A stretch of 64,000 bases of DNA from positions 41,576,068 through 41,640,067 of the forward strand of contig CM059566.1 of assembly GCA_030386875.1 (NCBI GenBank). Direction: 5' to 3'. Numbering within the stretch: position 1 is the first letter of the stretch; each line of letters begins with the position of its first letter. Under the pieces are notes generated by a model. That model had not been told where the DNA came from. It saw nothing but the letters and a program-made list of their open reading frames with translations, and made no database searches. Source of the DNA: Morinoia aosen. Its lineage: Eukaryota; Arthropoda; Malacostraca; Amphipoda; Talitridae. Positions 33,950 through 63,881 of the stretch are shown in pieces. The position numbers and the translations under genes were made by a program.

Positions 33950-36900
33950 CTAGGCGACAATGGATCTGGCGATGAGCTCCTTCATGATCTCGTTGGCGCC
34001 CCCGTAAATGGACTGGACTCTGGCGTCCACGTACGCCTTGCTGATGGGGTACTCGCTCATGTAGCCCCATCCGCCATGCAGCTGCACGCACTCGTACGCC
34101 ACCTTGTTCTGCAGCTCCGACGCCCTGTGCCAGAATGTCATTGTCATCGTTTGGTCTGAACACGTCGGTGTTCCTGACCCTATCCGGTCGGAACTCAGAT
34201 AAGAGAAATCGATGTTATTGACTCACAATATCGTTCGCCTAACACTTCGATATTCCTGGCCCTATCAGGGAGAAACTCTGCTAAAATAAGGTAAATTTCA
34301 TGGCTCACTTTAATGACACGATAGATGTGGATAATATTCTTGACTCACAATATCGGTAGGTTAATGACAAGCTAGATGTAGATAATATTCTTGGCTCACA
34401 GTATTAGCGGGTTAATGGCTGGCCATTCGATGAAATAAGCAGCAAGAAAATTGGAGTGAGGAATGAGTCAAAATGAAGTTGCACCATTCATACAAATTAC
34501 TTTCACCTCGCAAGATACGGCATGTTAGTAACGCGAAGTTTCAATCGAGCATCTCATTCACATAAAAAAGAATTACTTAATTATTTTTTTCAAAGGACCT
34601 GTTGAATAGATCGTAAGTTAGTTTCAAGCCTCCATAACCTCAACAAAGGTGGTCTCGAGAGAGGAAGGTACCATTTGGTATGAAGTGCAAGAAACAGGGA
34701 ATCAGTGCACAAGGTGTGTCCCCTACACACTCACTGTTTATAGTAACAGCAAGATTGTAAAATGTTTAAAATAAATTCAACTTCACCATCAAAAAAGTTG
34801 CAACTAAAAAGTGGTCTCTGCCCACTTCCATGCATGACTTACATCGTTATTAGGATACCAAACCCTTACCAGTATTTGACCGTAGAGCAGACCAAACCCT
34901 TACCAGTATTTGGCTGTGGAGGAAACCAAACCCTTACCAGTATTTGGCTGTGGAGGAAACCAAACCCTTACCAGTATTTGACCGTGGAGGAGACCAAACC
35001 TTTACCAGTATTTGACCGTGGAGGAGACCAAACCTTTACCAGTATTTGACCGTGGAGGAGACCAACACTCACCAGTATTTGACCGTGGAGGAGACCAAAC
35101 CCTTACCAGTATTTGACAATGGAGGAGACCAACACTCACCAGTATTTGACCGTGGAGGAGAACAAACCTTTACCAGTTTTTGACCGTGGAGGAGCCAACC
35201 CTTACCAGTTTTTCACCGTGGAGGAGCCAACCCTTACCAGTATTTGACCATGGAAGCCATAGCTCCGTCCAGCCTTTTGCTGTTATGCAGCTCAATGCAC
35301 TGGTCAGTGAAGGCTCTCGTCACAGACACCTGAGTTTTTATCTCAGCCAGCTTATGCTGAATGGTCTGCACACACAATTGAATGTAGCATAAGGAAATGC
35401 TGGCTTCTACTGCACTGGATCGACAACATGTCATGTCATACAATATACCAAGATGGAATTTTCACTTGCATTTTCTTTAAAAAAAAAAAGACCACTATAG
35501 TGGTGAATGCACCCAAAAAATGGTGCACAAGCATAGAGAAACGTCGTGATATAAATAATTGATCGAGGATTTAACTCAGTTGTAGCGATTTGTGAATGTT
35601 TCCATGAAGCAATGCTACCCAATTTTCAAGTTCAACAATCAATTCTTCAAATTAAAAAGAAGTATAGGATTGCCCTTCACTTGAAACTTTCACAAGCACA
35701 AATTAAGCAATGAATGAAGATGTTGACAATTTCCCACCTGTAAGTGGGACAAAGTTTTTCCGAACGCCTTGCGCTGCTTCACGTAGTCACGCGTCGTCTC
35801 AAACTGCCACTCACAGTTGGCCGTGCTTATCACTGCAATCAAGAGGCGCTCCTGAAATTGCAAGCATTCAGGTTAACTTTTTATCATCCACGTGTATTTT
35901 AAAAATACATTCTAATAACAGGTCTAGTGTAGTCTATTCTCTGTTACATGAGTGATGTGCGCCTCAAACTTTAGCAGCCGATCGGCAGTTCAGTCCTCAT
36001 TCTGATGTCGGTGACATTTTTACGCCAGTGTAGTCTTATAATGATGGCTGTTGCGTTCATGGTAATACGAGGAAAAATTTCTGACAGTGTAAATGATAGA
36101 CAACAGCAATTTCCTACCAGAAGACGTCACTGCCAACTAAGGAGCAGTCAAAATAATTATCAGGAAGAGTGAAATTTAGCTTGATGGAAATAGAATAATA
36201 AGGAGAAACGATCCAGTCTAAAACACCAGAGAAGTGCTTGATTAATGTATCTGTGATACAGGCTCCACTACTTTATGGGTCAAGCTAAAACACATCATGA
36301 GTTTCGTACAGAGTAGGCCAGAAGTAACTGACCTTTTTAATTTACTGGCAAAAAGAAAATCTCATTTTATTTGAAAGATTATCATTCTTATGGTTCATTT
36401 CGGGATCCATTAACTCAGCTAGCTAATTAAAAGGGTCAGTTACTTCTGGCCCACCCTATATATCAGGGCAGGTCGTTCAATCTTGGTATCCTCGTTTCTT
36501 CACTATTGCAGCCTAATAAGAGATTTTTTCATCATTTGTACAATGTCTCAATGGTGCAGTCAGCACCCACTCAATCAAAAACCAATATCAGTGTACTGCA
36601 AATAACATTGCAATAATCATTCATTCCTAAAGAATCTTTGTCTTTCACTCGTTCGTTGTCTGCATCAAAAGGAGTAATATGTACAAAATTCAGAAGGTAT
36701 TGCATTAAATGGTATTTTATGTTACGATAATCATAATACCCTAAAAGCATTATTAAATCTTGTCATTTATGAAAAGCCGCATATGCTAGAACTGCAATAA
36801 TAAATAGCATTTTGAACAACGCAAGATGGTTCCATGCAGTTTTTAACAATGAAGCAAGCTACTGTTGCTGTTTAGTGCACGCAACAAAACTTGACATTGC

Positions 36901-39900
36901 AGCCATTCTTTGTTCTACCTCAGGATTACGAGTATGTTAATACCAGTTCATACACGAATGCTATGAGTCTATTTCCTGATGATCTGCTTAGATTTTTATT
37001 TTAATACCTGACTTCACACGACTTCATTTTGAATTCCCATCTTACTTTGTTTGCTTAATACGCTTTGCAGGTAATAGAAAAATGTTGACATTTTTTTTAG
37101 TGACTCCGTTGTTATTGCTAATTGCTTGTGAAATTATCAAAATTTTAACACAGGTGTTCCAAAGAGAGAAAGGTACGATTTAGTAAGAACTTAAGGGAAT
37201 GCGGAATTTATGCACACGGTGCATAAAAACAAAGTTCAGGAAAAAGTTTATGAAACCATATAAAAGTTGGAGAAGAGAGTATTAGTTGTGAGAAAAAAAT
37301 GACAACAGCAAACCAAAAATGATGGTCCTTAAAAACAAAATTTTTTTCAACATAAAGGAGGCCTACCAAACTTTCAGCTCCGGACCTCGCACATTTTCCC
37401 CCTACGAGTGCTAATTCCTTTAGATACCATAGTTGCTGCAACATAATTTTAATCTATTGTCAAAAGAATCGCAAAAACTACTCTTATAACTAAAGGAAAA
37501 CGTTAAGGGCATGGTTCGGGTCTATTTCCGGATTATGGTCATTTTTCGGTTTATAAACTCATCTTATAGATTTTTCTTGCGCATCCAACGATATAATTGG
37601 CTTTCAAGTACGTCAATTGGTTAGTCTCATGGACGGGGTAAAAGACGCGCACTGGTGAGACCTTGGGGTGCGCCAATGGATGGGTGACCTCCCTCTTCCC
37701 CCCCCCCCCCCCATTACGAGCCAGTATTGAGTGTTTCTCTACGGGAATAGCATGAGAGTTCATTCATGGCCTTACTTGAAATGCTTTCGTACTCAAACGA
37801 AACATTCTATTACTCAGTGATAAATTATGATGGTGTTATTGAGTGTTCGTTTTGAGTCCGGCTGCTGAGTCGTCAGCTAATTAGCTGGCTATGTAAACAT
37901 AAACGCCTCCCGGAGTTTTAAAGCTACAGGAATAGCAATTATATCAATTGAAAGGGCTTAAAAAGAGCTGCAAAGCAATACAGGTAATGGAAAAAAAAAT
38001 TAGTCAGCATTGAAAAAAAATTGTTCAAAATAAAAACCTGTTCTGAAACTTGTATTTATTGACTTTTGATATGGATTCTTTCCCACTGTTTTGAAGGTAC
38101 ATAAGAAGGTACAGAATCGCTGATAAGACTCAATTAAAAAATTAGTAATGAACGAAAAAAAAGTTTTTTTTGGGGAAAAATGGCTTTTCTGAAAACTCAC
38201 CTTTTTGATTTTCGAAAACCTACTCCTCCCACAGTTTTGAAGGTACAAAAATGACGAGCATACCAATCAATAGCGATTGAAAAGGAAAATAGATCCGGTG
38301 CAAAAGTTTTTTCAATTTCAATTCACCTTGAAAATTAGAAGTAAATTATTAAAAAAAGTGGAAAAAGAGGTCATTTTTTGGGAAAAAATTCTCAAAATTC
38401 AAAAAATCAAATAATCGAAAAACTTTTGCACCGGATCTCTTTACAAGACAATTTGCTATCTAGAAAATATTTTCTTAGTTCTGGGGTTCAAAATTGTAGG
38501 AGTAGGATTTTCCGCAAAACATGTTTTTTCATGTTTTTTAAAAATAATCCTATTCATGTATGGTTACGAAAAATACGCACAAATAAAAAAATTATTCAAA
38601 ACAATTTACACCTACGGTAGATATCTCAGAGAAATCCACTGAGAACTTACAGACTTTTTTTTACCCCTAACCGTCCCCTTAAGACAGCTGCTATACAAAA
38701 AGCAGCAAGAAAATCCAAAATATCTGACGACATAGAAGACGAAATCGCGGCAACACTTCACCTGCGGCAACTCCTGCATTAGCTTGTAGAAGCCCTGGTT
38801 TTCCTTGCCCAAGAGGGCAGTCGACGGCAGCCGAACGTCCTCAAAGAAAAGCTCAGCGGTGTCCTGGAATAGTTTACATCTTTTGTCTAAATGATGCAAA
38901 TGTCAAGAGAAATTCCTCAGCGTTTGAATCAGAATGTATTTGAACTGTCAAACAAGTGCACAATATAGCTCCTAACAAAGAAGGTCCCTATTATGGTCAA
39001 GTACCTATAAATAAAAGGCACTTTCCCCAAGAAATTAAAAAAATTCAGCATCACACACCTGGGCCTTCAATCCCATTTTTTGGAGCTTTTTGCCCTTTTG
39101 GTAGCCTTTCATCCCCTCCTCGACAAGGAAAAGAGATATGCCGTGAGCACGAGATTTGGCATCAGGCTTCGTCACAGCAACCACGATAACGAGGTCGGAC
39201 ATGTAGCCGTTTGTGATGAAGGTCTTCGATCCGTTCAGAATCCAATCGTCGCCGTCGCGACGAGCATTTGTCATTACGCCCTGTAAATCACTGTACAGAA
39301 ATGAATTAGTCCCTCTCACTGTTGCTACAATTTTCACACACGTAAATACAGCTTTTTAACCATAGGAAAACCATAAGAAAAAGCACCTGTAATGAAACCT
39401 AAGTTTCATGCAAATACAAAAAAAAACATCACTAGGCTAATGAGAGTGAAAAAACTTATTAGCAAGTACTGTACATATCATGTAAAGCAGATTAAAGAAG
39501 CTTATAAAGCAAAATATTTGGGTTAGCTATCAATCTCTGCAGAAATATTTGTGCATGACTAACTTAAATGTGAAATACACTAATTTATCCCCTGCAAATA
39601 GATAAAATAGACCAAACTCGATTAAGCAAAATCTGAAGTGTGAGTACATTATACTAAAATAAAGGTACCATTTCCTTAAATTTCTACCTCAGAAGGAAAA
39701 TTCAGTAAAAGAGAATGAAAAATTTCAGTAGAAGCAGGACTGAACAGCTTACCTTCCAGCACCAGGTTCAGACATAGCAATAGCACCAATTTTCTTTCCA
39801 GCAACCATGTCAGGAATGAACTTGTCAATTTGGTCTTTGGTGCCATAGTGTGTGATATAAGGCATCACAATGTCCGAGTGCAAGGCAAACCCTGGTCCTG

Positions 39901-42900
39901 AACAGTTGGCATACATTCTGAAAGAAAGGTTGCTTGTTAGATGTCTTGTTTTAGAGTCTAATGCACTTACATAGGTTATGCTTCAACATTACAAACTATA
40001 TTCCACATTACACAGACATTTCATGTAAGAGCAGTCCAGCTAGAACTTGAAGCATGTTAAAAAACAAGATATATATCAACATCAGTAGTTGCTGCATGAC
40101 AGGTTACAACAGTAATAGAAAATACCCACAATTCTTCCATGACAATGGAAGTATCTTTGAAGTCTCCACCAATGCCTCCATGCTCCTCAGGAGTAGCAAT
40201 GCCCAGCAGCCCTGCCTCGCCTGCCTTCAGCCACACTTCCCGGGACACTTGGCCATCTTTCTCCCATCTGAAGGAAAAACCATTCTTGTGTTAACTGAAA
40301 TGACACTTTTATGAAGAGTGGCCAACTCATTCTCGTCAATGCATTTCTTTCTTCACTCAACAATTGCACCCTACACTCAACAATTGCACCCTACACTCAA
40401 CAATTGCACCCTACACTCAACAATTGCACCCTACACTCAACAATTGCACCCTACACTCAACAATTGCACCCTACACTCAACAATTGCACCCTACACTCAA
40501 CAATTGCACCCTACACTCAACAATTGCACCCTACACTCAACAATTGCACCCTACACTCAACAATTGCACCCTACACTCAACAATTGCACCCTACACTCAA
40601 CAATTGCACCCTACACTCAACAATTGCACCCTACACTCAACAATTGCACCCTACACTCAACAATTGCACCCTACACTCAACAATTGCACCCTACACTCAA
40701 CAATTGCACCCTACACTCAACAATTGCACCCTACACTCAACAATTGCACCCTACACTCAACAATTGCACCCTACACTCAACAATTGCACCCTACACTCAA
40801 CAATTGCACCCTACACTCAACAATTGCACCCTACACTCAACAATTGCACCCTACACTCAACAATTGCACCCTACACTCAACAATTGCACCCTACACTCAA
40901 CAATTGCACCCTACACTCCACAATTGCACCCTACACTCCACAATTGCACCCTACACTCCACAATTGCACCCTACACTCAACAATTGCACCCTACACTCAA
41001 CAATTGCACCCTACACTCAACAATTGCACCCTACACTCAACAATTGCACCCTGCACTCAAAAATTGCACCCTACACTCAACAATTGCACCCTACACTCAA
41101 AAATTGCACCCTACACTCAACAATTGCACCCTACACTCAACAATTGCATCCTACACTCAACAATTGCATCCTACACTCAACAATTGCATCCTACACTCAA
41201 CAATTGCATCCTACACTCAACAATTGCATCCTACACTCAACAATTGCATCCTTCACTCAACAACTGCACATTTTACTCAGCAATTGCATTTTATTTTTAA
41301 AAATTGCATATTTTATTTAACAATTGCATAACTTTGCAAGCAAGTCTCCAATTTCAATGCATAGCTTTTTCACAGGGAATGAAAATAATTAATAAAAGGC
41401 TGCCTATTTCTCAATGAGTTTTGAAATACTGTGTCAATTTGTAACATAGTCACTTAACAGCAACAAACATACCTTTTGGATATTTTTTGCCGCTGAAATT
41501 CCTACTGAATACATAAAGAGCTTCTTCACCAGTATCCAAACTTACAATAAAAATGAAGCAACTACATTAAATAGAGATTCTTTTCACCTTACATTCCCAT
41601 TAAGCAACAACTACCTAAACTTAAATTCTTACTCAAATTTACTTAAATTTAAGTTTACTTAAATTCTTAAGTAAACTCTTAAGAATTTGTCAAGTACTTG
41701 ACAAATTAAGTAAATTTCATCAGCTACAAAATAGACATTACCTAATCTCTTGAAAATCTTTCTAATAAATTTCATAGCTACAAAATAGACACTACCTTAT
41801 TTCTTGCAAATCTTTCAAATCAGTAACAGAAGCCAAAAACTATAAACTTACTGGTCATGGTAGGGAACAACTTCTTCCTGAACAAATTTTCGAACAGACG
41901 CCCTAAAGATATCATGGTCTGAATCAAAGATCTCTCGGCAGCCAATATCCATCATAGTGTCAGCTTGAGCTGCTGCTTTCCGTTCACTCTGCAGGAACCT
42001 GTTTTGAGACCAATACAATTATATTGAGAATGCAAATGAAACATACTAAAAGAAAACCTGAACATGGGAAGAACCTAAAACAAGCATAGTATGAAGCTGG
42101 TGCACATTGAAGACTACACATACCCAGGTAGCTTTAGTCTCATTATAAAGAATGCTCTAAATTGGAAATTAGAAGAAATTCCTGTAGGAAATGAACCTGA
42201 GAGTGAAAATTTGTTTATAATAAAGTGTGAAAGAATGCATGCCAGAGAATGTGTTATTGTGATTGTATGCTATCTGACAACTGATGGGATTTTAGCTCAT
42301 CAAGAGAATGTAAAAAGTATGAAATATTAACAAAAATTGTGCGAGAGAACATTGCAGATGCCCTGATTGTGATGGGTGACATGAATGGCCATGTTGGTAT
42401 ACTTGGTGAGCCTGTGAATGCAAATGGACAAAAATTGATTGATTTCTGTGATGAAAATGAACTTGAGAACCTGAATGTCACAATAGGAAATGGCTTGCAT
42501 ACACTGCAAAGCAGGGAATGTAAAACTGCAATTGACTATATGATAGTGAATAGTAGAGCAAGAGTATTTGTCAAAAAAATGTTTGTAGATGAAGATGATT
42601 TTGATATTGACAGTGACCATAAAATGCTTGTGCTTGAATTTAATTGGGATGGAAAGGTGTCAATGCAGATTGTCAGCCGTGTAAAAAAAAATTGGTGTAT
42701 TAAAATGGCAAACTGGGAAGAATTTAGGAATGAATTGAGTAGATGCAACTGGAACAGATGTGGAAATGTAAATGGTCTAAATGGTGAGATTGCATGAACC
42801 TTGTATGATGTGGCAGTGCAAAAGATTGGTAGAATAAAATGCAGGAAAAGTATAGGAAATGCTAGGTGGTTTACAAGTGAGATAAAGGAAGAACAAATGA

Positions 42901-45900
42901 GAAGAAAGACTTTAAATAAGAAACAACGAAATATGAGGAAAATGTATGAAAGACGCAGAATTACTGAGGATGAATGGTAGAGTGCATGGAATGAGTACAT
43001 GGACCAGCAGAAGAAAGTAAAGAGAATGATTAATGAGGCTAGAGTTAAAGAGGAGAGACATCACGTTGAAAATCTAAGAAAGAAAGGTCCGGATGGAATA
43101 AAAGATTGGTATAGGTTTATACAAGGTAATGATATAGGTAGTGAAGTTCAAGTCGACGAATTAGTAGTCAATGGTTGCAGTGTGCGAGGTTGGGTGCAAA
43201 TGGTGAAAGCAGTTGAAGAATTCAGGGAGGATATTGGTGGAATGAATGAGCAGGTAACTGATGATGAACCCATAAATTTTCTGATTGGTGAACATGAGCT
43301 GCAAATGGAAGACAAAATCACTTGTGAAGGCGATCGTAAGTTTTTTGAAGAAAGTGAAAAATGGAAAGGCATGTGGCCCTGATAGGATCCCATATGAGTT
43401 CTATAAATGTGGAGGAGAGAACGTGGTCAATATGCTGAAGTGTTTATTTGATGAGATATGGAAGAGTGAGAGAGTACCAGATGACTGAAACAAGTGTAAT
43501 GTAGTTCTGTTGCATAAGGGTCATAAGGGTGGGCATAAGAGTATGAAAGAACTTAAAAATTACAGACCAATTGCCCTGGTTGACACTGTATGTAGGATAT
43601 TTTGTAGTGTTTTAAATGATAGATTGAAACGTTTAGTAGAAGAACTAGGAGTCCTAGGTGAAGAACAGAATGGGTTTAGGCAAGATATGTTGTGAGGATA
43701 ATCTTTTTGTAGTGAGTGAAATAATTGAGCAAATGAGGAAGGATGATAAGAAGCTATATCAGCATTCCTGGATATTGAGAAAGCGTATGACAGAGTGGAT
43801 CGGGTTAGGCTGTTTGAAATTTAGAGAAAAGTTGGAATTAGCAGAAAAATAGTGAACATTGTACAAAGTCTGTATGAGAACACAAGTGCTATCTACATGT
43901 TAGGAAATTTGAAAACAGGGCAAGTGAGGAGTGTTTGAGGAGTGAGATGGGGCTGTACTCTGTCTCCCCTGTTGTTTGGGTTGTACACAGAAGAATTAAC
44001 AGTTCGATTGAGAATGAGTGGCTTAGGACTGAAAGTTGGTAATGAGAGACTGAGTTGTTTGTTGTATGCTGATGATGTGGTTGTGATTAGTGAATATGGA
44101 CATGAACTACAGAGGATGCTTGACATTGTGAATGGATATAGTACAGATTTCAAGATGAACTTTGGTGCCAATAAAAGTAAGGTTATGGTTATAAATAGTG
44201 ATGAGACTGATAGAGACAGACTGTGGAATATTGGAGAAATCAGAATAGGTAGAACAAAAGAATACAAATATCTAGGTTGTATGATAAGTAAAGATGGATG
44301 CACTAGAACTAAGGGTGAGAAAGTGGCAAAAGCAATGCAGTGGAGTGGACAGCTAAGTAGTGTGGCCCAATACAGAGCAAACAAGTATGAATGCGTGAGA
44401 GGAATGTGGAAGTATGTTGCTGTACCTAGTGTCATGTATGGTATGAGTGCTCTTGCCTGGAATGGAAGTGACCTTGAAAAGCTGGATGTGATACAAAATA
44501 AGGTAGGACATTTAGCATTGGGAGCTCCAAAGTGGACAGCCACTGAAGCCATTAGAGGTGACCTAGGGTGGAGCCTATTTTCAGAAAGAATGATAAAAGC
44601 TGTGCTTAATTACAAGGTAAGGATTGAGAGAATGCAGAATAGCAGGTGGGGAAAGCATATTTTTGAATGGAATCTGAGTGTAAGCTATTGGGAAAAAATA
44701 TGTTGGGGGCATGCAAGGAAACTAAGTACAGTGGTAACTCAGTACTCGACCATAATCCGTTCTGAGGTGGTGGTCGAAAAACAATTTTTTCAAACACCGA
44801 AACCAATTTTCCCATAAGAAATAATGGAAAGTAATTTAATCCATTCTTACCATTAAGAAAAATATCTAAAATATTATAAGAATGTGTATCTAAATAACAA
44901 TTGTCTTCTCCTTCGTGATGTACGTATTGGCCGGCAATTTCTCCCAAAACAGGCCGGTCTTGTCACAGTTAAACACTTGTTCAGGAACATGCTCTTCAGC
45001 CTTGATGGTCTCACTGAATTCTGTAACATATTTCTCAGTCGCTGCTTTGTCCGAACTGGCTGCCTCCCCATGCCTGGTAACTCTATGAATCCCTGTTCTA
45101 TGTCTAATTTTTCAAACCATCCCCTGCTTGCCTTGAAAGTAAATGAACTAGCACCTTCACCTCCAGTAGTAATTTCCTTCTTCAGTTCAATAGTGGTCCT
45201 CACTATTTTCCTCTTTGCCTTCCCCCTTATCACTGTCTTTCTTTGGACCCATGATTAAGGGCTAGAGCAACACGAAAAAGTTTAAATCTGGAAAGAAATA
45301 CAGTACTCGGAGTCTCGGACAAACTGCGTACGTCTTACTCCGCCCATGGTCAGAGTCGAACTAACGCTTACCCGCTGGCCGAGAAGGGCCGAGGAGCGCG
45401 TTCGGGTTGACTCGGCTAGTCGAGTACCGAAAATCTGTTCGAGATCCGAAGCATTTGCTACTCTAATTTTTTGGTCGGGAACCGATTTGGTCGAGTATAG
45501 AGGCGGTCGAGTACCGAGGTACCACTGTATGCAAAAGATTATTCATGTTAGAATTGGGAGACCTGTGGATGACTGGAGTTTAACAAATGTTGGAGGTGAA
45601 GGGCCTGAGTGTGACTGCAAGAGGTGGAAAAAAGAGATTGAGAAGCAAACAAAAGAGTATGGATTGAATAAGTGGAAGCTTAGCATGAGGCAAAAGACTA
45701 CACTTAACTGGTATATGCAAAAGAAAGTACTTAAGTGTGAGATGTTCTATGATGGTAGTTTTGGAAGTCAACTCTTGTTTGCTGTGAGATGTAAATCATT
45801 GAGCATGAATAAGCGTACATGGAGGTGGAATGAGAATAATAATAGACTATGTCAGCACTGTGATAGGGGAGTGGAGGAAACAATTGAGCATTTTGTGCTG

Positions 45901-48900
45901 GAGTGTAGTAAGTATGAGCAGGAGAGAGAAAGTTCCATGAATGTGGTTTTTGAGCAGTATGGAGAGAATGAGTGGTATGCTAGATGTGCTGAAGATGTTT
46001 GTGGTATGCGGTGTATTGTTGGATTGGATCTGGTGTGTAATTTGAGTATCACTGAAGCTTTGAAAGTTTTTCTTGTACATGCCTGGAGTAAAAGATAGTG
46101 ACTGGAATGAGCAAGTCATGTAGAGTGGGCTGGAATGAGCCAGTCATGTAGAGTGGGCTGGAATAAGCCAGTCATGTAGAGTGGGCTGGAATAAGCCAGT
46201 CATGTAGAGTGGGCTGTAATGGCCCACCATGCACAGAGATGGTGTCTTGACGTACTGGTTATCCAAGTGATGGTGTCTTATGGCAGTTTGTGATGAGGAT
46301 TGGTGGATCCTGAGTAGCTTAGTGGACAAGTCTGGTACACAGGCGCTGAACTTTTTTGCATGAGTATCGAGGAGGGAATTGTAGGCCGTTACAAAGGCCC
46401 CAACACTGTTGGCCCTCAATTTCAAGTTCAAGTTGAATAATGTATAAGGTGATTTGTAACCAAGCTGTAATTATAAAATTATTAAATCAAAATCAGTATA
46501 ACTGATAACAATAATTCAAATTTATAATAATTCTGATATATTTTAGAACAATAGTAAATCCCCAAATAAGATTCAAAATTCTTGAGTATTGGCATATAAA
46601 CAATTTTGTTTTCTTCCTTCCATGAAGCTAACAAGGAATCAGTCTACAAATGAATAAAAAAATGTTGCAACCAATCAAATTATTTGTCCAATATTCTTAT
46701 TTGATACTTTATAAATATATTTCAAGGTATTAAATATTCACAGCATTTTAATAAGAGGAAAAGTTGTTTACTTTTCTTTTGATAGATATCAAATGGTTCA
46801 ATATAATGATAGCACAGGATATTTGTATTTTCTCAAAAAAGTGAGAAATAATCGTCAACACCTAATCATACTGAGATAGCACTAAGACTATAAAATGAGT
46901 ACTCACATTCCCACATTCTGAACCTCAGTTTTGAAATTTTGGTATACTATGCATGTTAATCAGACTTTGAGAAAGACATCCATACTAACATGACATGAAA
47001 CGAACACTGTTATCAATAATATTTAGTGATACCGATGTATCGGTATCGGCAGTATTGGCATCGGCAAAATCCGGCCGATACTTTACCGATACTTTCCAAT
47101 AATACGTATTTTATCATTAAAATGAAGGTCATAAATCATGAAAGTAAAAGTAGCTAACCTAATGATACCCGTTGTGTGTTTATTTATATATTTATTTGGT
47201 GTCCGCTTCTTAAGAAACATAGGTTGTGCGAGTTTGGGGTATCACGGATACCGAATTCCTCAGTGTAACATTAAGGAGGTCGTCCCACTTTTTGAACTTT
47301 TTTCGTCCGATTTGTTTGAAAATTGGCCAATATATGTATTATGTGAAAGTAAACCTTTTTCACTCCTGTCACTTTTTTTATTTAGGGCTTAGTTTTTTTT
47401 TCAAAAAATTAGTTTTTTGGTATATTTTATTGATATTTTAAATGATACTCGTCTTTGAGTTTTGATGCTAGAACAAAACCAAAGACAGTTTTTTGAATCC
47501 TTGGAAGATTCCTAACAAACCCAAATGGGCTTTTTTTCAAATTCAATATTTTTCTATTTTTTTCAAATTTTTCAAAAATTTCAAAAAAACAACACTAATT
47601 TGTTGGGTTTAGAGCTATATATTTTTTCAAAAAATTTGTATTTGAATAAAAGCCCATTTGAGTTTGTTAGGAATGTTCCAAGGATTCTAAAACTGTCTTT
47701 GGTTTTGTTCTAGCATCAAAACTCAAAGACGAGTAGCATTTTGAATGTTGAAAGTTAGAAGTGTTGGGTATAAGCATTAAATAAAATTTTTTGTTGAAGC
47801 GAAATATAATGAACAATTTATGTAATTGAATGCAGTTTTAATTTTTTTTCGATAATTTCCATACACAACTTCATATTCACACTGTGAATTGTGATTTCCA
47901 AATTTTGACATTTAATCAAGATAGGTTTTGTCAGGATAGGACAGGTTAGCTTAGATTAGGATAGGCTAGGTTAGCACAGGTTAGGTAATACCGACAGAAT
48001 TTTTCTCAGGTCCGCCTAGCTTAACGATGACATTGTCTATGGAATCTCCACGGGTCCTGCTACTATCTAATAATACCCTTGATTTATTTGGAGTCCGCTT
48101 CTTTCATTTTCTTTGTCACGCTCAGAAGGAGAGTTATAGAGACCGTAGTTCACCAGCGCGCAAGTACAAGAATATTTTTCATCACGGGTGCTGTTAGGGT
48201 GAATACATTAGTTGGGCACATTTGGAAAATTTGTTCAAGAAAGTTAGTGAATCCCGTCATTTTTGACGGGCTGTGCATACTTGTAATCAAATAAAGAGCC
48301 TATTCATACCTAGTAAATTAGCTAGGTAACTGTTAAATTATAGCGTTTAATCAGGCCCGCTATATGAATTCACTACTTTGAATTCCCAATGAGTCACGGT
48401 CATAATTGAAAGCTATGTAGCATGAATAGTTAAACCCTGTAGCGACATCAAATTATACTTTTACGACTAAAACCTATATAGTTTGAATTAATGTCCATAT
48501 CTTGAAGTATGTGACAGGCTAACAAAAACCAAACCAATTTAATAAAGTTGAAGGTGCATTTGAAAGTTTTCGTGAATTTAATATAGAAGTAGCTGAAAAT
48601 TCTATTATAATTCAGCTTGTAAATCGTCAAATATTCCAAAGCTAAGAATTTATTTTAATTTAGCAAGTATATCGCCGTTCATAAAAAATCTTGTATTTTT
48701 CTTCTATGTTAAGATGTTTGAAAAATTCACAAACAATCTTATAGTTGAATACACCTGAACGGGTCAGTTGATTGCTTTATTCGCAACTTGATGAATTTAA
48801 AAAGGAGGAAAGGAACTCAAAGGAACTCAATCATATTTATTAGGAATATGTTTCGGAGTCCAGCTCCATCATCAGTTCGTAGAAGAAAAATTCATTATGA

Positions 48901-51900
48901 CTACAATAAAAGAAAGAAGAAAATGTTGGATACAGTCATTAAAGGAAATCACGAAAACAAAAAAAAACAGAACATGTCCCAGAGAAAATAAAATCGACAT
49001 GATTTACCTGAAATTTGCAATGGGTGGGAACTGTCAAAATTGTTGAGGGCCGGTTTTCGTTTAAAAATATGTAGTGACTCTAAAATCCCGAGGTCACATG
49101 TAGTTGAAGCCGAATCTAAGATTTTGAAGTCCGCAGAGGATATCGGAACGTTGCATTTTAATGCGTGATTACAAACGAATTGTGCGAATTGGTTCCCCGT
49201 GCGGAAGCTTCAACTCCGATGTTCTGCCATTCTGATATAAAAATTTTGTGCCGTCATGCCGACGTACGATGATGTGCACTGCACACAACTGTACAACTGT
49301 AAGAATAAATCAGAAAGGCTCGCTTCTCCATCAAATCCTTGTACCGGAATTGTATAATTTTGAGGTTGCTTCTTTTTCCGGTACGAAACGCTTCCGATGG
49401 AGATGCGAGCCTCTCTGATTTATTCTTAACAGTTGTACAGTTGTGTGCAGTGCACATCATCGTACGTCGGCATGACGTCACAAAATTTATATAACAGAAT
49501 GGCCAAACATCGAGGTCAAAGCTTCCGCGCGGGGAACTAATTAGCTTACTCCTCACACTCCGCAGTACGTAATCACGCAGTAAAATGCAACGAACCAACA
49601 TCCTCTTTGGACTTCAAAATCTTAGATTCGGCTTAAACTGCATGTGACCTCAGAATTTTAGAGTCGTTACATATTTTTAAACAAAAACCAGCCCTCAACA
49701 GTTCTGATAGTTCCTACCCATTACAAATTGTAACTAAATAATAATCTTGTCGATTTTTGTTTTTCTGGGACATGTTTCAATTTTATTTTATTTTCTTGAT
49801 TTCTTTTAATGACTGTATCCAACATTCTGTTTTTTTTTATTGCAGACATAATGATTCATAAATTTACGAACTGATGATGGATGTGGACTCCGAAATGTAT
49901 TCCTTATAAATATGATCAAGTTCCTTGAAATTTTGGTTTTTAAATTCTTCATCTTATAGATAGTTGCGTGTTGGCGGATATTTTCGGTTTTGGGACTTAT
50001 CGAATTTTACTATTTTTTCGCCAAAGTATGTATTCGTATTTGGTCTGAATAACACAAAAACGACAATCCTTTTTTTGGAGAAATTTTAGTTTTGGTCCAC
50101 TTTTGGAGCCAGTTGCTATTATAGCTAGTCTACATTACGTTGCAATACGATTAGAAACGCATATCTATTGAATGGATTTCATTTTATTATTTTTCTCAAC
50201 AATAGACTTAACATAGCAAGAGCATTTTATTTTTCATAATCGGAAACTTTATTGTCAATATTTTGATATTATTAGATATATTAGCAAATAAATTTATTAA
50301 AACTCCCATGTGAGGGTTATAATGGTTTTATTTTAATACAAGTGTGCACGGCCCACCAAAAATGGGATTCAATACCCTTCATGAACGAATTTTCAAGATG
50401 TAGATGACAAACAAATACAGTATTTCCATCCTTACAGTACCCGTGATGAAAAATATTCTTGCACTTGCGCACTGGTGAAACTCATATCACAGATACGGTC
50501 ATTATAACTATCCTTATGAGCGTGAGTGACAGAGAAATGGAAAAAACAGACACCAAACAAGTAAACCAAGGGCAAGGGTATCATTAGGTAGAAGCATGAC
50601 CCATGGAAATGCCAAGGACAATGTCATTGTTAAGCTAGATGCACCCATGGAAAAATTCCGTCAACATTATCTAACCTATGCTATCCTAATTCTATGTAGT
50701 GACTCGCACTGCCGCTAATCACGTTCATGACGTGAAGGCATAGCGATCGTCATTACATGGTAGCAACTGCGGTTCTTGTAGGCCCTACACCACTAATGCA
50801 TTGTTCACTGTTGCCAATACGTAGAACGGAAAGTCGGGCAGGTTTAAAATGTTTATGCCGAGCACATATGCACAAGAACACACAAAGCTCTCTTGACTCG
50901 GAGTTCCCCTCCAGTGACAAATCACCATTACTCAAAAACGATTACTTCGGGCACAGCTATTCCCAAAATAAATATATTTAATTTAATGTCTTTTAATTAT
51001 TCAATATAACCTGAAAGCTGCACAAAAGCAACATGGTTAGGAAAAGTGCGCAAATTACGGCAATCACAACAACCTATCCAATACTACCAACCTATCCTGA
51101 TAAAATTTCAAACACATCAATGCATGTACAGACGATCTTTCAATGTTACACTGAGGAATTCGGTATCCATGATACCGCAAACTCAGACATCCTATGTTTC
51201 TTAAGAAACGTACACCAAACAAATGCATAAACAAACATACAACAGGTATTATTAGGTTAGATGATTGTAAAAGTATCGGTTTTGGTAGTAGTATCGGTCA
51301 AAGTATAGGCATTTTCAAGTCTCGGAGTTTTGGTATCGGCCAAAAAATGGGTATCGGTATCGGACAAAAAATGGGTATTGGTATCGGACAAAAAATGGGT
51401 ATCGGTATTGGCTAAAAAATGGTATCGGTACATCACTAATGATATTTTGCAACACAGAAAAACATTTAATATCTCAATAATTGAGTAAATCAACTAATAT
51501 CAAGTAGATACATTATTTTTTTACTTCTCTGTTTTATTGAACATAGAAAAACATCAAAGTAAACCTTAAAAAGTGTAAATGTGTAACGTTTGGTAGTAAT
51601 CAATTTTCCCGTTTTCAGTGCCTAAACATAGTTAATTAGATCGAAATAAACAAGTTTTCTTCTAAGCACTTTCCGTCTGAAATGATTATATTATGAGTTA
51701 TAGCGGTAGGTATAGTTTCGTCTTTGATGACGAATGTGCTCAAATAAACAGCTATTCATCGATTTTCAAATTTTTGTTGCTTAAATCATGGTAATAACAA
51801 TGACTAAGCATAGTTAATTAAGGAGATCATCCCAGGCCCCTGTCGCTCAGGTGGTCATTTTCCATGTTTTTGTTGGAAAAGAACCCTTAGGTGGTGGACT

Positions 51901-54900
51901 ATTTGGTCCTAAAATTTTATGGCGCTACGGGCAATAGATCCCCCCCCAGGGGGGGTAAGGGGACCAAAATCTACAACTTTGAGCCCATTTCAACCCCATA
52001 TAAAAAGAGAACAAATAGGACATGGAAAAAAAGCATATTTGAGTTTGTTAGGAATGTTCCATGGATTCTAAAACTGTCTTTGTTTTTGTTCTAGCATCAA
52101 AATTCAATGATGAGTAACATTTTGAAATATCAATATCAGTAAAATGTCAATACCTAAACACCAAAGGTCAAATTTTTTCAAAAACTAAGGCCTAAAACAA
52201 AAAAATGAATGGAATAAATTGTTTCTTTTCAGAAGTGTAGTATCGCAGTTTCCAGTACGACATTATGTTCATATAGCAGGAAGCTTTAACTTCAATTCGC
52301 CTAGCTGTACACCAGGCAGGAGCAAATGAAACGCACAGCAGGACTACTAGTAATGCACTGACTCAAAAAGGAACACATTTGCTTTAAGGGGACGGTTCGG
52401 GGTAAAAAAAAAGTCTGTAAGTTCTCGGTAGATTTTTCTGAGATATCTACCGTCAATGTAAATTGTTATTAATAACTTTTTTGATTTGTGCGAATTTTTC
52501 GTAACCATACGTGAATAAGATTTTTTTTTAAAAACATGAAAAAACATTTGTTGCGGAAAATCCTACTACTCCTACAATTTTCAACTCACAGAACTCAGAA
52601 AATATTTTCAAGATAGCAAATTGTCTTGTCCAGAGATCCGGTGCAAAAGTTTTTCGATTATTTGATTTTTTGAATTTTGAGAACTTTTTTCCCAAAAAAT
52701 GTCCTCTTTTTCCACTTTTTTGAATAATTTGCTTCTAATTTTCAGGGTGAATTGAAATTTAAAAAAAATTTTGCACTGGATCTATTTTCCTTTTCAATCG
52801 CTATTGATTGGTATGCTCGCCATCTCTGTACCTTCAAAACTGTGGGAGGAGTAGGTTTTCAAAAATCAAGAAGGTGAGTTTTCAGAAAAGCCATTTTCCA
52901 AAAAAAAATTTTTCGTTCAGTACTAATTTTTTAATTGAGTCTTATCAGTGATTCTGTACCTTCTTATGTACCTTCAAAACAGTGGGTAAGGATCCATATC
53001 AAAAGTCGATAAATATAAGTTTCAGAACAGGGTTAATTTTTTAACTTTTTTTTTTCAATGCTGACTAAATTTTTTTTCAAAAACCTGTATTGCTTTTTAG
53101 TTCTTTTTAAGCCCTTTCGATTGATATAATTGCCATTCCTGTAGCTTCAAAAATCCGGGAGGCGTTTATGTTTACATAGCCAGCTAATTAGCTGATGACT
53201 CAGCAGCCGGACTCAAAACAAACACTCAATTACACCATCATAATTTATCACTGAGTAATAGGATGTTTCGTTTGAGTACAAAAGCATTTCAAGTTAGGCC
53301 GTAAATGAACTCTCTTGCTATTCCAGTAGAGAAACACTCAATACTGGCTCGTAATGGGGGGGAAGAGGGAGGTCGCCCATCCATTGGCGCACCCCAAGGT
53401 CACACTAGTGCGTGTCTTTTACCCCGTCCAAAAGACTAACCAATTGACGTACTTGAAAGCCAATTATATCGTTGGATGCGCAAGAAAAATCTCTATAAGA
53501 TGAGTTTATAAACTGAAAAATGACCATAATCTGAAAATAGACCCGAACCGTGCCCTTAAGACTAGAGCGACCCCGGAAGTTAAACAAAGCCCTTCCGGTA
53601 AGTGCACCACACGGCGGCATCCATTGGCTGCGTTTATGACACTTCCGCCGGTGACCGCGATATCCCAAACCAAGCACGATAAGGACATCCTGTGAGTTTG
53701 CCATGCGAGGCTCACAACAACGATCTTCCGGGACTCGTAAACCTAGGCCTCCGGAACTCTCACTTACAAACCAGTGTCATACTATAACGATGCATATTTT
53801 AATATATAACAAGAAATTACATATCATAGTCAAATTTCATAAGAATCAGACTGAAAATAAAAAATTTCATATTATTGAAAAAATAATAAAAAAAAAATTT
53901 TTCGGGGGTTTGAAAATCACAATTCACAGTGTGAATATGAAGTTATGTATAGAAATTATTGAAATAAAATTAAAACTGCATATAATTACATAAATTGTTC
54001 ATTATATTACACTTCAATAAAAAACTTTGTTTTATGCTTATACCCAACACATTCAACTTTCAACATTCAAAATGCTACTTGTCTTCGAGTTTTGATGCTA
54101 GAACAAAACCAAAGACAGTTTAGAATCCTTGGAACATTCCTAGCAAACTCAAATGGGATTTTCTTCACATACAAATTTTTCGAAAAATATATAGCTCTAA
54201 TCCCAAAAAATTACGGTAAATCTGAAGGAGATGACAGTTGTCGATTTTCCACTTTTTGGTGCCTGAACCTAATTAATTGATTCAAAATAAACAAGTTTTC
54301 TTCTATTCTTTTTTCGTCTCAAACGAGTATTTTACGACTTATAGCGGTAAGTTTAGTTTCGTCATTGATGACGAATGCGCTCCAATAAACAGCTACTCAT
54401 CGATTTTTGAAATTTTCTTGCTTGAAACATGGTAATGACATCAAAATAAACAACTTTTATTCTATAAACTTTTTTCGTCAAATGAGTATTTAACGAGGTA
54501 TAGCGGTAGGTTTAGTTTCGTCTTTCAAGACAGAGCGCTGGAAGCGAGACGCCATTGCAGTATTGCCATACAACTCGATCAAAGAATTTCTTTCCGCTTC
54601 AAAGACTGGAGTTGCGGTAAGTCATTTACCGCTATAACTAATAAAATACTCATTTGAGACAAAAAGTGCATAGAAGAAAACTTGTTTATTTCGATCTAAT
54701 TAACTGTGCTAAGGCATCGAAATTTACAAAATCGACAACTGTCATCTCCTTCAGATTTACCAAAATTACTGTTGTTTTTAGAAATTTTAAAAAATTTGAA
54801 AAAAAATAGAAAAAACTTGAGTTTGAAAAAAAATCCATTTGAGTTAGTTAGGAATGTTTCAAGGATTCTAAAACTGTCTTTGGTTTTGTTCAAGCATCAA

Positions 54901-57900
54901 AACTCAAAGACAAGTACCATTTTGAAATATCCATAAAATATTCCAAAAACTTATTTTTTGAAAAAAAACTAAGCCCTAAATCGAAAAAGTGAGAGGAGTA
55001 AAAAAGGTTTACTTTCACATAATATATATACTGGCCAATTTTCAAACGAATCGGACTAAAAAAGTTCAAAAAGTGGGACGATCTCCTTAAATAGAAATAA
55101 ACAAGTTTTCTTCTATGCACTTTCCGTCTAAAATGAGTATTTATTAGTTATAGCGGTAAATGACTTACTGCAACTCCAGTGTTTGAAGCAGAAAGAAATT
55201 CATCGATCCCGTAGTATGGCATCACTGCAATGGAGTCTTGCTTCCAGTGCGATCGTCATCAAAAACGAAACCAAACCTATTGCTATACCTCATTAAATAC
55301 TCATTTGACAAAATAAGTGTATAGAAGAAAAGTTGTTTATTTTGATGTTATTACCATGATTCAAGCAACAAAAATTTGAAAATCAATGAGTAGGGTAAGT
55401 TGCAAAAATTCGTCCAATTCGAATTTCCGTACACACCAAGTATATTTTACTTTAACAAGCTAATATGGAGTTGAAGTTCATCGAAAAGTGGTTCACGTGG
55501 TAACTGCTGGTTTATAATATTGTATAATTGCCACAAACCGCAAATAAATATCACTGTTTGAACAAAAATGACAGCCCAAGTGAATGACCTGCGTTTCAGT
55601 TGTTTATGAAGTTGTCACACCTTAATTGACTACCATTTTGCATCGCCGACTAAAAATTTTTCCGATGACGAAGTTGTTGTGTTAGGCGATGTCGTACCTG
55701 TGTGAGTGTTGACAGCTGTAGTGCTGCTATTTTACAGTTTTATTTCTCCCTTTGTTTGTTTCTGAGGTGTACTAAATTTCGAATCTTTTAACGTTTATGT
55801 TTATCCTCATTGTTTATGATCCTTAATATCTTTTCAGGTATAGATTTTATAGTTTATGAATTGGACCGGCAGGCCGCAGCCGAGACGGTTCAAGAAACGG
55901 TTTGTGAAAAGTACAGAAATTTCTTGAGAATTTCTTGAGTCCTATTTCAAACTTTAGTCCACCACTCGTAACTTTTGAAAGAATGCACCTATTGACTTCA
56001 AATTACTCTCAAACGAAAGAACAAAACATTTTCTACAAAGGTGTTATATACACATTCAAAAAATTTTCCTGAGAAGTACAGAAATTCTTTGATAAAAATG
56101 TTTGATTCGCGTGCCATCGCGAGCGCGAAAGGGTCAACTAAAGTCTTTCGTCGGCGCGTGAGTCGTACAGGTTCATCGCAGAATTCCTGTACTTTTCAGA
56201 AACAATTTTGAATGTGTTTATAACACCTTTGTAGAAAATGTTTTGTTCTTTTGTTTGAGAGTAATTCAAAGTCGATAGGTGCATTCTTTCAAAAGTTACG
56301 AGTGGTGGACTGAAGTTTAAAGTAGGACTCAAGAAATTTCTGTACTTTTCAAAACCGCTTCTTGAACCGTCTCGGCTGCGGCCTGCCGGTGCCTTGCACA
56401 CGCTCTTGAAGCATTGTTTTTGGAACACCATATTTGTCACTTGCGTTGCGTATACTCGAACTTCCATTTTTTAACTCTGCTAATGCGTGAACGAGATCAT
56501 CATTGCAGTAGTGGTGTGTTTTACAAGGAGCCATAATTTAATGTCAACATTCGTCCCAATTCATACCGACAGGCCGCAGCCAAGACGGTTCAAGAAACGG
56601 TTTGTGAAAAGTACAGAAATTTTTTGAGTCCTACTTTAAACTTCAGTCCACCACTCGTAAGTTTTGAAAGAATGCACCTATCGACTTTAAATTACTCTCA
56701 AACGAAAGAACAAAACATTTTCTACAAAGGTGTTATAAACACATTCAAAATTGTTTCTGAAAAGTACAGAAATTCTGCGATGAACCTGTACGACTCACGC
56801 ACCGACGAAAGACTAGTTGACCCTTTCGCGCTCACGATGGCACGCGAATCAAACATTTTTATCAAAGAATTTCTGTACTTCTCAGGAAAATTTTTTGGAT
56901 GTGTTTGTAACACCTTTGTAGAAAATGTTTTGTTTTTTCGTTTGAGAGTAATTTGAAGTTGATAGGTGCATTCTTTCAAAAGTTACGAGTGGTGGACTAA
57001 AGTTTGACGTAGGACTCAAGAAATTCTCAAGAAATTTCTGTACTTTTCACAAACCATTTCTTGAACCGTCTCGGCTGCAGCCTGCCGGTATCAAAACGTA
57101 CGCATCAAATCCATTAAAAATGAACACGCTATTATATTACAAAAAATTTGAACGCTCACAGGTAACTTTAGCGCTAAACAAAAATATAAATTTCAATTTA
57201 GAGGGTGTACGAACTTTTGTGATGAGGTTCGAAACGTGGTCGAAATTTTAAATTAATTTCAAATTTGGTTCGAACTTTCAAAAATTTCAGTTGGACAAAG
57301 TGTTCGCAAAGCAAGTTGTTTTTTTCATATCAAGATTTGAAAGATTCTTTTTAGTGCAAAGCACGATGAACCCAATGCATTTGCGCTTTTTTGACGATAT
57401 TTGCAGCAGCAATAGCGATCTTGAGAACCGTTTGAGAGGGTTTGAAGTTTGAACCGTTTAAATCGGACAAACATTCGGACTTTACCCTAACTGTTTATTC
57501 CAGTGCATTTTTCATCAAAGACGAAAACTAAACCTACCGCTATAACTCGTAATATAATCATTTTGGTAAATGTTGAGGATTAACCGGGAATTGATATTTA
57601 ATTTTTTGGTGCGTAAACATAGTGCATTAGATCAAAATAAACAAGTTTTCTTCTATGTGTTTTCTGTCGTAAATAAGTATTTTACAAGTTATAGCTGTGA
57701 ATTAGTTACCGCAACTCAAGTGTTTGAAGCGGGAAGTAATTCATCGAGTCCTGCAAATGGCAACGCTGCAATGGAATCTAGCTTCCGGCGTGATAGTTTT
57801 CAAAGACAAAACTAAATCTACCACGCTAACTTGTAAAATGTTCATTTGATAAAAAAATTTATGGAAGGAAAGTAGTTTATTTCAATTGATGTTATGGTCA

Positions 57901-62954: not shown

Positions 62955-63881
62955 ATGCCTGACTCAGATAATGAAGATCGAGCCCACTCAAATCCCATTA
63001 GGCTCCCTCCTTTCATTCCAGGGGACGCCCACACTTGGTTTAACCAAGTGGAGGCGGTATTCAGGTATAATAAAATACGTAGTGAGATAGACAAATTTTA
63101 CGCTCTCGTGAGCGCCGCGCCCACAAAACTCCTTAATGACTCCAATGAGCTTTTAGAAAACCCTCCAGACCGCGATCCTTACGGAATCTTGAAAAGAAAA
63201 ATTTTGGCAAGGCTTCAGACGTCCGATGCGGACAAGTTTCGCAGTTTGGTAGACGCCTCAGCTATTCCTTCTGTCTCTAGTTCTTTCCCTCCCACTTCGC
63301 TAGTTAAAGAGCTGCGGAAAATCGCTACAGGTGTGGCCGTAGCTGAGGGATTTTTGAAGGAAGTTTTCATGACGAAGCTCGCACCTAATGTGCGTCCTTT
63401 CCTCTCACTAGCAGGGCCCGAGCAAACGTTGGAGAAATTAGCGGAAGCCGCAGAGACGGTGATCCGAAATATTAATTTGCCAAGAGAATCACAAGTTGCT
63501 TCCCTGAATGTAGCTGCTACAACTTTTAGCCCGTCAAATACGGCGCAAAATCAATCCTCAGCCACAATAGATAAGCTGCAGCAGGACATTGCTGAAATAA
63601 AGCAAGCTCTCCAAAATTTTCAAATAGGTCAGAGTGTGGCTCACATTCAGCAAAACCCAGGGAGATCCCAAAGCCACCAGAATGCCTACGACTATCCTTA
63701 TGACTATCCCTCCAACTATCACTATCCTCCTCCTCCCCCTCAACGCTTTGATAGAGGTAGATCTTATGATAGGTCAAATCAAGACCGCCGCTTCAGGTCG
63801 CGCTCTCGTGATGCTAGTAGCAATTTATGTTGGTACCACAGGAAATTTGGTGACCAAGCGCGCAAATGTGCCTCAAGGTAG
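62955..63881 (+). CDS. Gag of a Ty3/gypsy-type LTR retrotransposon
   Basis: A 308-residue protein starting at ATG 62955. The N-terminal capsid block L-P-P-F-I-P-G-D-A-H-T-W-F-N-Q-V-E-A-V-F is typical of arthropod gypsy-type Gag. A Gln-rich middle and a Tyr/Pro/Arg-rich segment (D-Y-P-Y-D-Y-P) follow. A zinc-knuckle-like end, C-W-Y-H-R-K-F-G-D-Q-A-R-K-C, precedes the TAG. This Cys-Tyr-His-Cys layout binds nucleic acid in related elements. The frame is uninterrupted, suggesting a young copy. Protease-like sequence follows in another frame. Confidence 0.85.
   Translation: MPDSDNEDRAHSNPIRLPPFIPGDAHTWFNQVEAVFRYNKIRSEIDKFYALVSAAPTKLLNDSNELLENPPDRDPYGILKRKILARLQTSDADKFRSLVDASAIPSVSSSFPPTSLVKELRKIATGVAVAEGFLKEVFMTKLAPNVRPFLSLAGPEQTLEKLAEAAETVIRNINLPRESQVASLNVAATTFSPSNTAQNQSSATIDKLQQDIAEIKQALQNFQIGQSVAHIQQNPGRSQSHQNAYDYPYDYPSNYHYPPPPPQRFDRGRSYDRSNQDRRFRSRSRDASSNLCWYHRKFGDQARKCASR

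Follow-up and report, generated by a model that had tools for sequence, protein, structure and literature searches.

Two oppositely oriented transposon copies enclose exons 2-6 of ACADL in the amphipod Morinoia aosen: probable independent insertions, with any circular RNA probably minor or absent

Two full-length copies of a transposable element, here called T3, lie in opposite orientation within the long-chain acyl-CoA dehydrogenase gene, ACADL, of the talitrid amphipod Morinoia aosen, in a window of 64,000 nucleotides (GenBank assembly GCA_030386875.1, contig CM059566.1, positions 41,576,068 to 41,640,067) to which coordinates refer unless a contig or locus is named. The copies, their TTAA duplications and inverted ends, the exons 2-6 enclosed between them and their potential to form a duplex can be read directly from the DNA. 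We think it likely that they are two independent insertions, into introns 1 and 6, and that a circular RNA of the enclosed exons is minor or absent. A first-pass annotation of the window had regarded a circle joining exon 6 to exon 2 as expected, in competition with ACADL mRNA. The arrangement of long inverted intronic repeats on which it built is of a kind known to favour back-splicing, and its account of that arrangement and of the duplex potential stands, but the expectation and the competition are not justified by the spacing described below, and skipping of the enclosed exons had not been considered.

ACADL and the position of the T3 copies

ACADL occupies the minus strand, where nine coding exons join into a protein of 431 residues followed by TAG, with the N-terminal, middle and C-terminal domains of the acyl-CoA dehydrogenases all present (Table 1). 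The gene is identified as ACADL because residues 37-430 match a solved mitochondrial long-chain acyl-CoA dehydrogenase, the best solved relative, with an alignment E of 2.9e-189. Exons 2-6 are bounded by AG and GT, total 784 nt and have an open joined reading frame; their delimitation bears out the two sites first given for the proposed back-splice, 38762 for the donor and 41998 for the acceptor, as well as the statement that the T3 copies enclose these five exons.

The positions first given for the two copies proved exact to the base. A single main plus/minus BLAST alignment joins 37503-38682 to 53559-52384 at 91.3% identity (1087 of 1191 columns identical, 26 gap columns), with a score of 1376 bits, against 36.8 bits for the best inverted match obtained when the 25.6-kb gene was resampled 20 times with a first-order Markov model. 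The left copy begins 79 nt beyond the exon 6 donor, as had been claimed (the intronic bases 38761-38683), while the right copy is on the upstream side of the exon 2 acceptor, 10,386 nt away from it. Given the predicted exon 1, complementary sequence is thus present in both introns that flank exons 2-6, introns 1 and 6; closeness to the back-splice sites, which in the literature on circles is a strengthening feature rather than an absolute requirement, is seen on the donor side and not on the acceptor side.

The assignment of the right copy to intron 1 depends on where the gene begins. We scanned the minus strand from 42001 to 164000 for ATG-started exons in the right phase for exon 2 that combined a donor scoring above 3 with no fewer than 3 basic residues and no more than 1 acidic residue, and ordered the candidates by a ranking score of our own. 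The winner, 59010-58916, encodes MAQQFRYGLLSSVARVSKTFRSQVPRRFSTQ followed by M and scores 16.1, against 13.1 for the runner-up; it looks like a mitochondrial presequence, has a good donor and fits exon 2 in phase. This exon 1 is a prediction from sequence features alone, the match to the solved structure beginning only at residue 37. If it is right, intron 1 is 16,918 nt long and T3-right lies inside it; the first-pass annotation, which placed T3-right there, had no exon 1 among its evidence. Were the first exon to lie between T3-right and exon 2, T3-right would not be part of the transcript. This is less likely, the best-ranked candidate being located beyond T3-right, although the same scan has weaker ones between 42001 and 52384, such as those around 48.2 kb and 47.2 kb. 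CpG islands are useless as a promoter guide at ACADL, since there is no CpG depletion (median observed/expected 0.94), and an Rfam scan of the window gave nothing at gathering thresholds.

Further repeats lie in the introns of the gene. Intron 2, inside the proposed loop, carries a 20-bp minisatellite at 40354-41288 (about 47 copies, 98% match) that leaves long open frames in three phases, and in intron 1 the plus strand of 42339-44817 holds the remains of a non-LTR retrotransposon with Pfam matches to an endonuclease and a reverse transcriptase.

T3 as a transposon family

Among 29 full-length T3 copies, TTAA stands on both sides in 25 and TTAG on both sides in 1, while the flanks are unequal in 3; the matching four bases make a 4-bp target duplication likely. 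The termini read mostly GGG(C/G)ACGGTTCGGG inward from either side, and the first two bases are purines at both ends in all 29 copies (GG, with GA at one end of a copy at locus L029). Membership of the piggyBac superfamily, whose elements also insert at TTAA and have ends that differ from RR...YY, does not fit the GG...CC ends of T3. TTAA target duplications together with 5'-RR...YY-3' ends are given as the signature of Kolobok elements, in contrast to piggyBac, and are shared by non-autonomous Kolobok elements and T3 (PMC9587614). On account of these duplications and ends, and by its ends only, T3 is classed as a putative non-coding, non-autonomous Kolobok-type DNA transposon. No transposase or autonomous partner turned up, although no systematic search for one was made. 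Two longer copies of 2.3-2.6 kb (loci L027 and L028), considered as autonomous relatives, are both T3 with inserts, and the largest reading frames at these loci are of 114 and 113 aa.

The two window copies diverge by 3.6% and 4.1% from the majority of the 29 copies, and from each other by 7.2%, against a mean of 6.8% over 406 pairs, among which they rank 189th. Because their flanks differ and their divergence is typical of the family sample, they look like independent insertions from one burst; a local inverted duplication is rejected on the same two grounds, in a sample made up mostly of best matches to T3-left.

Exact T3 ends number 801 genome-wide, against 0 for the reversed pattern, and 6758 against 3928 when up to 3 mismatches are allowed. 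From 73 elements rebuilt from the first 100 of the 801 ends, we estimate about 740 full-length copies; a second estimate, half of the excess ends at 3 mismatches, gives about 1,415. Random placement would produce about 2 inverted T3 neighbours within 15 kb genome-wide with 741 copies and about 7.5 with 1,415. In the 252 Mb sampled there are two other inverted pairs, with gaps of 11.3 and 5.3 kb, both confirmed by BLAST; open frames lie between their copies, and these pairs too may enclose exons. The 73 copies sampled thus contain two inverted pairs separated by no more than 15 kb, against 0.26 expected at 741 copies (P 0.03), which speaks against pure chance, and against 0.95 expected at 1,415 (P 0.25), which is no excess. 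T3 copies may be somewhat clustered in the genome. As an arrangement the ACADL pair is unremarkable; it is the enclosed exons that single it out.

A compound T3 arrangement was also seen at G000:C7:21923000-21932999 (locus L024, 5461-7879), where a T3 copy that lacks the final 74 bases precedes, in head-to-tail arrangement, a full copy and two additional repeats of the last 77 bases, the matches overlapping by 3-4 bases.

Pairing, geometry and timing

In the ACADL pre-mRNA the T3 arms could pair as a very stable duplex of about 1.1 kb: the computed structure has 1098 base pairs in runs of up to 92 and -1741 kcal/mol, against -282 and -284 kcal/mol for the arms folded alone. A search of 33500-59100 returned 43 inverted matches at E up to 1e-4, of which those above 45 bits were inspected after merging near-duplicates. 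Just three of these cross exons, all of them T3 with T3, and every other lies within a single intron, including 1.0-1.4 kb palindromes of intron 1. The T3 pair heads the comparison of pairing across introns with pairing within them, at 1376 bits, followed by the intron 1 palindromes at 1320 and 958 bits, and there are in addition pairs in intron 1 whose pairing would cross the T3-T3 stem. The two palindromic elements could fold on themselves as RNA.

A T3-T3 stem would close a loop of 13.7 kb. Within it, 3,236 nt separate the exon 6 donor from the exon 2 acceptor by way of the exons, and 10,466 nt by the opposite route. By a crude ideal-chain polymer estimate, from which all contact gains given here are inferred, closing the loop would raise exon 6-exon 2 contact about 1.5-fold, or about 2-fold should the hairpins in the 47.1-52.2 kb part of intron 1 fold up, whereas arms 300 nt from each splice site would raise it 16-fold. 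The small gain follows from the 10,386 nt between the upstream arm and the acceptor. The path from the exon 1 donor to the exon 7 acceptor, 23,065 nt without the stem, would shrink to about 7,009 nt, a gain of about 6-fold. Skipping of exons 2-6 would shift the frame, 784 not being a multiple of three, and translation of the exon 1-exon 7 product would stop at codon 36, which lies 233 nt ahead of the last junction, so that this RNA is a likely substrate for decay. The 784-nt circle is without an endless frame, its longest open stretch being 271 codons over four laps.

T3-right is transcribed first; once past the exon 2 acceptor, the polymerase has to cover 3,316 nt before it reaches T3-left and 4,495 nt before it has gone right through that copy. 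At elongation rates of 1-4 kb per minute, intron 1 would have roughly 0.8 to 4.5 minutes in which to be removed, and the T3-right arm lost with it, before T3-left is complete.

The course of events that we favour would accordingly run as follows. The arms would pair in a small fraction of transcripts at most, since T3-right may be removed with intron 1 during transcription of the 3.3-4.5 kb from the exon 2 acceptor to T3-left. Where they did pair, the geometry would favour skipping of exons 2-6 and RNA editing of the duplex over back-splicing of exon 6 to exon 2, and the exon 1-exon 7 product, with its early stop, would probably be decayed. The majority of transcripts would be spliced normally, with any circle a minor by-product. 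On spacing, a low-level circle of exons 2-6 is possible and an abundant one unlikely.

Several points weigh against this reading. All that is said of splicing is drawn from sequence, the ideal-chain estimate ignores proteins and the compaction of RNA, exon 1 is a prediction, and the 29-copy sample, being mostly best matches to T3-left and not random, weakens the comparison of divergences. Moreover, if the long intron 1 were spliced slowly, there could be time enough for duplex formation.

Alternative readings and published systems

Independent insertion with little or no circle is compatible with two of the alternatives, so that its likelihood overlaps with theirs. The first, which falls a little short of an even chance, is that the pair is inert, either because intron 1 is removed co-transcriptionally before the arms can meet or because hairpins within introns, together with proteins, keep them apart. 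The restriction of the remaining inverted matches above 45 bits to single introns agrees with this, as does the divergence of both copies, which is typical of the 29-copy sample and gives no sign of special conservation. The length of the T3 duplex argues the other way, for it exceeds that of the repeat, 297 bp long, by which skipping was induced in mouse Tbxt (PMC10901737) and of the laccase2 fragments of 242 and 392 bp that are reported to have worked in fly cells (PMC12060249).

We consider it unlikely that the pair mainly causes joining of exon 1 to exon 7, with decay of the frameshifted RNA lowering ACADL output and no important circle. The shortened path and the early stop favour such an effect, and inverted intronic repeats promote skipping both in worms, where the same complementary stretches promoted circle and skipping alike (PMC8330042), and in TBXT (PMC10901737). 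It would need T3-right to survive until T3-left is transcribed, and it leans on the predicted exon 1. The AluY-AluSx1 pair of TBXT in apes shares with T3 the trapping of exon sequence between inverted transposon copies in different introns (PMC10901737), an arrangement present at ACADL at the level of sequence; the TBXT arms are 1.4 kb apart around one exon, those of ACADL 13.7 kb apart around five, with a frameshift.

More doubtful again is the reading closest to the first-pass annotation, that pairing of the T3 arms causes exon 6 to be back-spliced efficiently to exon 2 and that the 784-nt circle lowers ACADL mRNA. The anatomy is exact, T3 with T3 provides the sole inverted match above 45 bits across exons in the gene, the duplex would be very stable and no more than 79 nt separate the donor from the stem. 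In C. elegans, the circles of six genes disappeared or fell sharply when one complementary stretch was deleted (PMC8330042), so that such repeats can be decisive; the matches there (in zip-2 and six further genes) likewise lie in complementary introns on either side of exons, and were tested by deletion, whereas the ACADL pair is known from its sequence. Against this, 10.4 kb separate the acceptor from the stem, the gain in contact is estimated at 1.5-2-fold, and the account of TBXT credits a pair 4.2 kb apart with a minor transcript only, the main skipped one being attributed to the 1.4 kb pair (PMC10901737), to be compared with a 13.7-kb loop here. According to a human study, inverted repeats favour circles and their predictive power is modest (PMC12093144). 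From Drosophila constructs the authors conclude that pairing and the proximity of the repeats to the exon both set circle output (PMC12060249), and the ideal-chain estimate agrees with both of these sources. The laccase2 and scarecrow circles come from exons flanked, like exons 2-6 of ACADL, by complementary intronic sequences (PMC12060249); the laccase2 fragments tested measured 242 and 392 bp and closeness to the exon is argued to matter there, while at ACADL the upstream arm is 10.4 kb off and five exons are enclosed. Circular RNAs linked to young transposon pairs have been described in five mammals (PMC8516420). A literature search for 'circACADL' found nothing, and none of the seven papers listed for ACADL and circular RNA is, judged by its title, about an ACADL circle.

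A lineage-specific RNA switch, in which the stem yields both the exon 2-6 circle and the frameshifted exon 1-7 RNA and so lowers the enzyme, is the least probable reading; the two feet of the stem would stand at very unequal distances from the splice sites, 79 nt at the donor and 10 kb at the acceptor.

Other features of the window and the assembly

Outside ACADL the window holds a chromodomain protein (19-2370), a protein with a YL1 C-terminal domain (14225-15187), a 22-bp minisatellite of about 52 copies with 98% match (23975-25112) and a DUF7041 frame that we read as gag-like (62955-63881). Elsewhere in the assembly, the first 6000 bases of five contigs, one of which is all N there, show none of four telomere motifs in triplicate. 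Among contigs G000:C26-C29, C27 (55-72 Mb) has several COX1-family frames without internal stops, perhaps belonging to symbiont or contaminant contigs. C28 contains two copies of a TGA-containing COX1 at a distance of 18,356 bases, as if a mitochondrial genome had been read through two times; code 5, with TGA as Trp, gives open frames on the contig with mitochondrial COX1, and the protein looks like that of an arthropod. On the mitochondrial contig at L053, 33-3735, an ND3-like frame stands between frames like ND2 and COX1, which is an unusual order.

Table 1. Features of ACADL, T3 copies and competing structures
Feature	Position	Strand	Basis
T3-left, full-length non-autonomous TTAA-flanked copy, intron 6; transcribed as reverse complement	37503-38682	+	BLAST, exon positions, ends
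T3-right, the other full-length copy, in opposite orientation to T3-left, intron 1 (given predicted exon 1)	52384-53559	-	BLAST, ends
Predicted ACADL exon 1, coding part, presequence-like	58916-59010	-	Top of presequence and donor scan; frame joins exon 2
ACADL exon 2 (would receive back-splice at 41998)	41852-41998	-	AG/GT sites, open frame
ACADL exon 3	40130-40267	-	AG/GT sites, open frame
ACADL exon 4	39753-39917	-	AG/GT sites, open frame
ACADL exon 5	39059-39290	-	AG/GT sites, open frame
ACADL exon 6 (would donate back-splice at 38762)	38762-38863	-	AG/GT sites, open frame
ACADL exon 7 (acceptor in exon 1-exon 7 skip)	35738-35851	-	Joined gene model
ACADL exon 8	35237-35365	-	Joined gene model
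ACADL exon 9, coding part, then TAG	33953-34123	-	Joined gene model
Palindromic (self-inverted) element, intron 1, competing hairpin	48789-49951	.	80% over 1195 columns
Palindromic element, intron 1, competing hairpin	55809-57147	.	86% over 1363 columns
Intron 1 arms inverted to 54763-55090 and 53909-54213; pairing would cross T3-T3 stem	47271-47902	.	Inverted matches
Stretch with partner arms 53909-54213 and 54763-55090 of the 47271-47902 arms	53909-55090	.	Inverted matches
Other inverted T3 pair, 11.3 kb apart	L029/L030, C1:14.93-14.94 Mb		BLAST
Other inverted T3 pair, 5.3 kb apart	L031, C2:58.98 Mb		BLAST

Implications

As it stands, the ACADL locus holds another inverted pair from a transposon family with hundreds of copies and is not a proven circular RNA locus, and it carries the caution that an inverted pair around exons does not by itself amount to a circular RNA. 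If the stem does act, 1.1-kb transposon arms would be effective across a loop of 13.7 kb even where 10 kb lie between one arm and its splice site, and ACADL would become a test of how far the proximity of repeats matters.

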